Positions 1 to 34,138 of a stretch of 42,320 bases of DNA are shown here, one piece after another. A program made the translations under genes and the position numbers. The notes below the pieces were generated by a model. That model saw only the letters and a program-made list of their open reading frames with translations. It was not told the DNA's origin and made no database searches. Origin of the DNA: Desulfobacterales bacterium (GTDB lineage Bacteria > Desulfobacterota > Desulfobacteria > Desulfobacterales > SURF-7); NCBI GenBank assembly GCA_018693105.1, contig JABHLN010000022.1:1-42320 (forward strand), written 5' to 3'. Position 1 is the first letter of the stretch, and every line of letters begins with the position of its first letter.

Positions 1-141
1 AAAAGTCCCCATCTACTGCGTTATAGCGGTTGATCATAAGTTCGACATACTGCATGTATGCCTTCACTCCTGATCAACCACTATGCCTTGTATATGAAGA
101 TATTTACTTAGCCATCGGTTATACTTTTTACGAGTTCATCA
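1..141 (-). repeat. Palindromic repeat element, copy 1 (truncated by window start)
   Basis: Reverse complement reads TGATGAACTCGTAAAAAGTATAACCGATGGCTAAGTAAATATCTTCATATACAAGGCATAG...GAAGGCATACATGCAGTATGTCGA...CGCTATAACGCAGTAGATGGGGACTTTT; matches copies at 5869-6022 and 33595-33748. Confidence 0.85.
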
Positions 142-4188: not shown

Positions 4189-4269
4189 TAGTATACAGAT
4201 AGTTGTCTTTTCCCTCATGCGATGGAAGTTAATATACAGTTGATGTTAACCAGTTTAATAATTAATAAT

Positions 4270-4422
4270 TGATGAACTCGTAAAAAGTCAACTCGGGATG
4301 GCAAAGTAAAAAGTTCAAAATCAAGGCGCCGCAAATCCTGAGGAATGAGGCATACTTATCGTACGCCGCAGTGACGAGGGATGCAGCGCAACGCAGATAT
4401 TGGACTTTTTACGAAGCCATCA
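4270..4422 (+). repeat. Palindromic repeat element, copy 4 (divergent subfamily), flanked by 11-bp direct repeats AATAATTGATG (4264-4274, 4422-4432)
   Basis: Ends TGATGAACTCGTAAAAAGT / ACTTTTTACGAAGCCATCA; internal GGCATACTTATCGTACGCC hairpin tip; CAACGCAGATATTGGACTTTTTACGA. Confidence 0.85.
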
Positions 4423-4443
4423 ATAATTGATGGGTTTACAAAA

Positions 4444-5845: not shown

Positions 5846-5868
5846 AAAAGTTTAGCATTGATTAAATA

Positions 5869-6022
5869 TGATGAGCTCGTAAAAAGTATAACCGATGGCT
5901 AAGTAAAAATCTTCATATACGAGGCATAGCGGTTGGATAGATGTGAAGGCATACATGTAGTATGTCGAGTGTCTGGCTAAACGCTATAACGCAGTAGATG
6001 GAGACTTTTTACGACGTCATCA
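5869..6022 (+). repeat. Palindromic repeat element, copy 2, flanked by 9-bp direct repeats AAATATGAT (5864-5872, 6022-6030)
   Basis: TGATGAGCTCGTAAAAAGT ... GAAGGCATACATGTAGTATGTCGAG ... AACGCAGTAGATGGAGACTTTTTACGACGTCATCA; arms pair over about 50 bp around loop ATGTA. Confidence 0.9.
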
Positions 6023-6035
6023 AATATGATATTTT

Positions 6036-22097: not shown

Positions 22098-22532
22098 CAT
22101 CGCTTAAATTATTAAATCAGATAAATATGTTTTCAAATGATCAACTGATATTTTCCATTATTCTTTGCATCTTCGCTATTATAGTTATTTTTTGCAAAAA
22201 ATTTCATATATTCTAAATCTAAATTCATTGATCAAAACCTTTGCAAAATATTTACTTTATTTTAAGTCCCAAAAAGACTTTTTCCAAGAATCTATGCTCA
22301 GGACAATTACATTTACCTGAAGGAATGTTGTAAGATATTAACTGAATATTATTTTAATATTATACATACTATATTTAACTCCTTCCTGGTTGACACATTT
22401 ATTACTTTCTTTTATATTTTTCGGTTTTTTTTAATTTATATTTTATGAAATCGTAAAAATATAACTAATGACTCGGCTTCAATATAACAGGCTTCTAATA
22501 CTGATCCAGCCTTAAAATTACAGGACATTTGA

Positions 22533-24404: not shown

Positions 24405-24692
24405 TAAATTTATTATTCCATCAGATATGTTTTTCACAAAACAAATACATTTACTGACCTGACATGAAGGCATATATTTAACAAGCCAAACTTATTACAT
24501 GACTATAACTCAATTATATAATTATGGTGTGTTTTACAACCCTATCAAATTTATAAAGCTGCATATTTTTATAAAAAAAATCATTTTTATAATGTTTTTG
24601 TTGTCATATTGATATTAATTTGACACAAACAGTTGATAGAGTTATAAAAATCAGATAATAATAAATAAAATCTAAAGCAAAAATTGTTTTTT

Positions 24693-33400: not shown

Positions 33401-33594
33401 TATGTTTCCCCTTCCCCCAATTGACCTGAATAATATTTATCGACACTAATATTTCTATTATATTATAGATCTTATCGATTTCACTATTTATTTTTTTAAA
33501 TGGCAATTTTTAAGATAGAATATACATTTTTTAATAATTCCCACTCAATATAAAAATTATTTTTACATTAACAAAAAATTCAATGATTCAATTA

Positions 33595-33748
33595 TGATAA
33601 TCTCGTAAAAAATACAACTGATGGCTAAGTATAAATCTTCATATACAAGGCATAGTTATTGATCTGGAGTGAAGGCATACATGTAATATGTCGAATTTCT
33701 GATCAATCGCTATAACGCAGTAGATGGAGACTTTTTAAGACGCCATCA
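33595..33748 (+). repeat. Palindromic repeat element, copy 3, flanked by 11-bp direct repeats TCAATTATGAT (33588-33598, 33746-33756)
   Basis: TGATAATCTCGTAAAAAAT ... GAAGGCATACATGTAATATGTCGAA ... CGCTATAACGCAGTAGATGGAGACTTTTTAAGACGCCATCA. Confidence 0.9.
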
Positions 33749-34138
33749 ATTATGATGGTATATGATACATTTATTACAGAGCTTCTTCCTGATTATAGGA
33801 TATCAATCTTAAGTTATATAAAGTCAATGCCAATATAGTTTAAATATCTTAGCACGGTCAATATATTTCAATGTCCATAAGGGTTAAATAAAATTTAACT
33901 ACAAAATCTAATTTCAAATGGACAAGTAATGTTTATACGATATTTAAAAAAACCTATTCATAATAATTTTTTCATTATCAGCTTGATTTTTCCATATAAT
34001 ATGATAAAGGTTTATAAATTAATAAGGACCAGCCGTATTTGGCGGTTCAGTTTCGTTCTGAAGGAAAGATTTATTTGTCAAAGTGACAACCTACAGTTTG
34101 GAACTATGAGAATTTTTTTCGAAAAGGAGGATGTCACA

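Follow-up and report, generated by a model that had tools for sequence, protein, structure and literature searches.

The window, a stretch of 42,320 nucleotides, corresponds to contig 87 in a genome of 3.24 Mb and 171 contigs whose host is described as a sulfate-reducer-like bacterium. It carries three copies of a repeat family, F1, one element of a sister family, F2, and a degenerate left-end remnant (Table 1). The copy under study has inverted ends GATGRNNTCGTAAAAAGT and a long, imperfect hairpin. A distance of 13 bp separates its end from the stop of a RidA-family gene, so that it lies near a stop codon and not exactly at one.

Table 1. Positions of the F1 element, its parts and related repeats in the window.
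Feature	Position	Strand	Description
F1 element, copy 2	5870..6021	+	152 bp, non-coding, between target duplications
Left target duplication	5864..5869	strandless	AAATAT, 6 bp
Right target duplication	6022..6027	strandless	AAATAT, 6 bp
Outer left inverted end, L1	5870..5887	+	GATGAGCTCGTAAAAAGT
Inner left end-like repeat, L2	5894..5909	+	GATGGCTAAGTAAAAA; hairpin partner of the right end
Right inverted end, R	6004..6021	-	minus strand reads GATGACGTCGTAAAAAGT
Covarying hairpin	5894..6021	+ (folds better)	46 conserved pairs and a fixed mismatch zone
F1 copy 1	1..140	-	right end truncated by the contig start; AAACTT at 141-146 is the left duplication
F1 copy 3	33596..33747	+	duplications AATTAT at 33590-33595 and 33748-33753
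F2 element	4271..4421	+	same ends as F1, GC-richer hairpin, 7-bp duplication
F2 duplication	4264-4270 and 4422-4428		AATAATT
Degenerate left-end remnant	22436..22473	+	82% over 33 bp

The initial annotation had described a hairpin element with its flanking repeats at 5864-6030, and its ends, arms, loop and coordinates were found as stated when the sequence was rechecked. The 154-bp element proposed there, at 5869-6022, exists as described; however, the duplication flanking it is 6 bp long, the commonest length among all copies, which leaves a mobile unit of 152 bp from 5870 to 6021. The 9-bp flanking repeat AAATATGAT is present on both sides, but only its 6-bp AAATAT is a target duplication; the repeat reads as 9 bp because AAATAT is joined by a chance GAT that is shared with the end of the element itself. 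The further copies reported at 33595-33748 and, in reverse, at 1-141 each aligned end to end with the element, with an identity of 84-89%, and so are not near-identical as had been claimed. No open reading frame of 80 or more amino acids was found inside the element, in agreement with the statement that none fits. Overlooked there were the duplication length of 6 bp, the sister family, the variety of interiors and the location of copies at stop codons.

The contig starts inside an F1 copy (window 1-141), and assembly probably broke at this repeat to give the window edge. At 24451-24495 there is a short, degenerate stretch similar to the interior of F1 (77% over 31 bp), possibly an old remnant.

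Copy number, insertion sites and interiors

The element is repeated far above chance. An internal 18-mer of F1 had 100 exact matches in the 3.24 Mb of its own genome, and the end motif TGATGNNNTCGTAAAAAGT, one mismatch being allowed, had 491, while the reversed control of each had none; the F1 family therein comprises at least 100 copies. This was the copy count that the initial annotation had called for. About 40 scored matches to F2 were recovered outside its window copy. F1 DNA was matched in 17 of 59 relatives, and a 19-base end motif was present in 109 of 396 genomes of the phylum, with a maximum of 571 in one genome (G179) and a control of 0. The named genomes among the matches listed were nearly all Desulfobacterota MAGs, with a few others, for example from Aminicenantes, Nitrospirae and Neomarinimicrobiota. 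The repeat is thus high in copy number and dispersed both in its own genome and in the phylum scan, as is expected of a miniature inverted-repeat transposable element (MITE). It also has the other attributes of this class, with terminal inverted repeats GATGRNNTCGTAAAAAGTC at both ends and a modal length of 152 bp, below the roughly 300-600 bp that bounds MITE size.

Thirteen copies sampled from the relative G028 were near-identical and all had exact duplications; these copies have moved recently. At six G028 loci (L368, L370, L371, L373, L377 and L378) the copies lie within arrays of AACGTTC/AACATCC-like heptamers, and such arrays border most contig-end copies in that genome too. Complete elements of the F1/F2 class were also found on three contigs of a virus collection (L170, L171 and L172), which are possible vehicles of spread; in L170 and L171 the right end is at a stop codon position. 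The element was unmatched in the plasmid and phage collections.

For analysis of the duplications, 701 kb of the own genome was sampled besides the window. Facing end pairs in this sample clustered about 154 bp apart, and an exact inner-flank match extended over 4 bp in 28/105 own copies and over 5 bp in 12/105. The last base of the element equalled the matching flank base in all 28 copies with an exact inner match, including 3 in which that base was not A, and the first base did so in 25 of the 28. Since the flank bases match outward as well, the duplication is 6 bp, sometimes 7 bp, and the mobile unit runs GATG...CATC; lengths of 4 bp and 9 bp had been considered and were replaced by 6 bp. 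In other genomes, exact duplications measured 6 bp in 45/57 cases and 7 bp in 10/57, a fixed length of the kind that MITEs leave, and most had the form A....T. Those of G028, which include AACATC, GATGTT and AATTAA, also place the element edges at GATG...CATC. The comparison of flanks that the initial annotation had suggested returned a 6-bp mode across copies.

The empty targets inferred from these duplications read TYAANNTTRA. This sequence resembles the junction of the element itself, which explains three cases of tandem copies with one common target sequence (L140, L148 and L122). No copies inside conserved genes were detected when these were sought by restoration of the open reading frame on excision.

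Unrelated palindromes were present within these same ends (among them GTCATTCC...GGAATCCAG, GATTGCTTCG...CGCAATGAC and CTTCGACAAGCTCAGG), and the element is a member of a MITE superfamily. The occurrence of one end type on unrelated palindromes suggests that interiors are exchanged or captured. Palindromes of the GTCATTCCCG/GGAATCCAG, GATTGCTTCG and CTTCGACAAGCTCAGG types, inside this one end set and with target duplications, were seen at L175, L188, L193, L225, L236, L237 and L241.

Loci encoding rve, DDE_Tnp_1, IS1634 and Y1_Tnp proteins in the MITE-rich genomes were without these ends, and no transposase was found among them. A search for an autonomous element, as pairs of terminal inverted repeats 300-4500 bp apart with matching duplications, returned only host genes or two-copy composites. 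In G028, another repeat shares the outer end (GATGGACTCGTAAAAAGTAGAATTTCATAACAACATG...) but has an AT-rich interior. It stops at least 10 contigs (L478-L488) within about 55 bp of the end, and the continuation of the repeat is not in the bin; this may be the autonomous element that is missing. Probably a longer element with these ends (GATGGACTCGTAAAAAGTAGAATTTCATAAC) exists in multiple copies and was lost in assembly or binning, and the absence of a transposase from the MAGs is therefore weak evidence. Repeated Y1 fragments in G197 turned out to belong to a small repeat of the IS200 type that is unrelated to F1. At L458, L464, L465 and L468, in G197 and G270, a small repeat GCCCAGCTCTGCTGGGC...CCCCGCAGCTCTGCTGCGGGG includes a decayed Y1 transposase fragment, and it recurs at many contig ends.

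Stop codons and the hairpin

Stop codons facing the right end of the element were concentrated at -3 to +6, whereas those facing the left end were spread, mostly over 10-660 bp. Positions were then scored in a strict window, in which the stop ended -6 to +3 from the element boundary and closed an open frame 100 or more codons long; genes in these counts are simple open frames and not curated annotation. In the discovery sample the right end lay at a stop in 31/101 copies and the left end in 3/101, and in a hold-out sample fetched afterwards the values were 12/33 and 2/33 (p=0.013). Random positions lay at a stop in 0.5% of cases. As the left end is rarely at a stop, the enrichment is specific to the right end, which in F1/F2-class elements is located exactly at stop codons about 10 times as often as the left. 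An ordinary orientation bias of 3' untranslated regions was considered and rejected, since genes facing left and right were similar in number and only the distance to the stop differed.

Among 18 testable right-end-at-stop copies with intact duplications, in-silico excision of the element with one duplication brought the stop codon back to its position in 17 (14 TAA and 3 TGA). Placement at the stop leaves the encoded protein unchanged. The genes concerned are genuine: of 10 ending at copies that were checked, 9 had well-known domains and 1 had TPR-type matches only; the domains included SSB, thiolase, homoserine dehydrogenase and cysteinyl-type tRNA synthetase. In the SSB gene the C-terminal DDDIPF was kept, and TAA was replaced by a TGA formed with the first bases of the element. 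The trend was weaker in other genomes (about 11 right versus 5 left of 46 in the strict window); in G027 and G028 it was 6 right versus 1 left of 21, among the recent G028 copies 2 versus 1 of 13, and other interior classes displayed little stop-codon bias. Copies at stops and copies elsewhere did not differ in age or fold quality.

In the F1/F2 class, L2 lies about 26 bp inside the left end, and a hairpin of 46 pairs arises from its pairing with the right end. A mismatch zone within the stem (AAGGC versus AACGC) is kept in both F1 and F2 across the phylum. Among 19 F1-type sequences, 95% of cells paired, compared with 33-47% for slid versions. In counts that are non-independent through shared ancestry, both sides had changed in 18 of the 46 pairs, a compensatory pattern as expected of a structured RNA that was reached in 0 of 500 shuffles (mean 9.0), and, with the structure predicted on the plus strand, G.U outnumbered A.C by 42 to 6 across genomes and by 51 to 13 among own copies. 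The plus strand gave the better fold in 30/31 sequences and in 37/37 of the own-genome set. Own copies had a fold energy of about -57 kcal/mol, against about -43 kcal/mol expected for an equal number of random substitutions. The initial annotation had read the locus as either a non-autonomous mobile hairpin or a structured RNA. Both descriptions were supported, the former through the inverted ends, the 6-bp target duplication, the hundreds of copies and the lack of a gene, and the latter through the compensatory changes and strand preference in the arms; given these last two features, the readings are therefore not mutually exclusive.

Mechanism and alternative explanations

Collectively, the ends, the target duplications, the number of copies, the tandem copies on one common target sequence, the near-identity of copies in a relative and the spread across the phylum identify the element as a MITE. 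On the favoured account (confidence about 0.92), its movement would depend on a DDE-type transposase acting in trans, with recognition of GATGRNNTCGTAAAAAGTC and use of AT-rich palindromic targets with a 6/7-bp duplication. The element would be a small gene-less transposon whose ends are bound by an enzyme supplied from elsewhere, and insertion into TYAANNTTRA would duplicate 6 or sometimes 7 bp; the fixed length of the target duplication is what points to a DDE enzyme acting in trans. Movement of a REP/BIME-like palindrome by a RAYT tyrosine transposase is highly improbable. Y1 enzymes are not known to make fixed 6-bp target duplications, and of 30 Y1 loci examined none was bracketed by these ends, although Y1_Tnp proteins are encoded in 14/14 genomes tested, with 33 in the MITE-rich G179, and RAYT genes with long flanking terminal inverted repeats have been described (PMC3733652). 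The 152-bp length, the terminal inverted repeats with target duplications and the hairpin of about 120 nt likewise bear out the earlier statement that this is not a classical REP.

Two features, the covarying hairpin and the stop-codon placement, exceed what an ordinary MITE shows. Selection on the hairpin exceeds what a simple MITE needs, which counts against an account in terms of a MITE only. That the repeat is mainly a structured RNA that spreads, serving as a regulatory RNA or as an mRNA 3' end or terminator, with stop-codon copies retained as co-opted 3' ends, is suggested by the covariation, the G.U excess and strand preference, the fold energies and the adjacency of about one-third of right ends to stop codons. 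We consider it rather unlikely, as a gene that stops at the right end transcribes the less stable of the two strands, the minus one, the stop-codon copies are neither older nor better folded, no covariance model in Rfam matched the element and no promoter was evident. The paired arm changes might instead reflect templated quasi-palindrome repair or strand-biased deamination and not selection on folding. Palindromes can correct one arm from the other, and mutation on one exposed strand could yield the excess of G.T over A.C; such processes could contribute to the paired changes. As their sole cause they are unlikely, since arm-to-arm correction should have erased the stem mismatch zone that persists phylum-wide. 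Placement at stops may be due to transposition machinery that picks gene ends directionally, in zones of translation or transcription termination, with the right end on the gene side. The right-end excess in both samples over the random rate and the original stops retained on reconstruction favour such a choice, but the core target is palindromic and so without direction, and the bias is weaker elsewhere, slight among recent G028 copies and small in other interior classes; we regard it as a serious possibility that falls short of even odds. Our uncertain inference is that the right end comes to lie at stops through an oriented choice of target and not through selection afterwards.

The MITE reading can be extended, tentatively and with a little less assurance than directional choice itself, to a phylum-wide superfamily whose F1/F2 class inserts directionally at stops, through the transposase or a host process, and whose hairpin is kept for mobility or as RNA. 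In this equally tentative extension the right end would be joined to the gene side, and copies would accumulate without change to proteins. If placement at stop codons is a true target choice, it would be a safe-site strategy rarely seen in elements of the DDE type, in which DNA is added at the gene end and the protein is unaltered, and it raises the testable question of how a transposon senses gene direction at a stop codon.

Comparison with known systems

No description of an F1-type repeat, or its sequence printed in a bacterial context, was found in the open-access literature; as genomes of a dominant anaerobe group each contain several hundred copies, it is a major and apparently undescribed repeat. 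Correia/NEMIS, RUP, ERIC/YPAL and Nezha MITEs are non-coding, 70-300 bp long, with terminal inverted repeats of 15-30 bp, and their hairpins affect neighbouring mRNAs (PMC3733652). Unlike these, F1 has a 6-bp duplication at TYAANNTTRA, a tandem L2 at the left, several interiors per end type and a right end enriched at stops. The GTAG/CGTC REPs and TIRYT repeats are palindromic, mostly extragenic and downstream of genes (PMC3733652); REPs are 20-40 bp long and tagged at one end, the GTAG kind being linked to Y1 transposases, whereas F1 has terminal inverted repeats and a target duplication. The Chunjie MITE of Geobacter uraniireducens has terminal inverted repeats, direct repeats and many partial copies (PMC10969869). 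Compared by description and not by sequence, Chunjie and F1 are both MITEs of former deltaproteobacteria, Chunjie being longer at 178-235 bp. The portions of the reports at hand on bcr1-bcr3 of the Bacillus cereus group describe mobile, interspersed MITE-like repeats that reach about 130 copies in a genome, are often transcribed in UTRs and have a repeated AT-rich motif, TTTAT, that is linked to their mobility (PMC6542083, PMC3446304). On that account both bcr1-bcr3 and F1 are interspersed, mobile and present in many copies, but sequence, host phylum and target motif differ, and the strict stop-codon placement of F1 is not reported in those portions. The kind of element is already known, as a MITE, and the stop-codon orientation, dual left end and interchangeable interiors make F1 a distinct variant of it.
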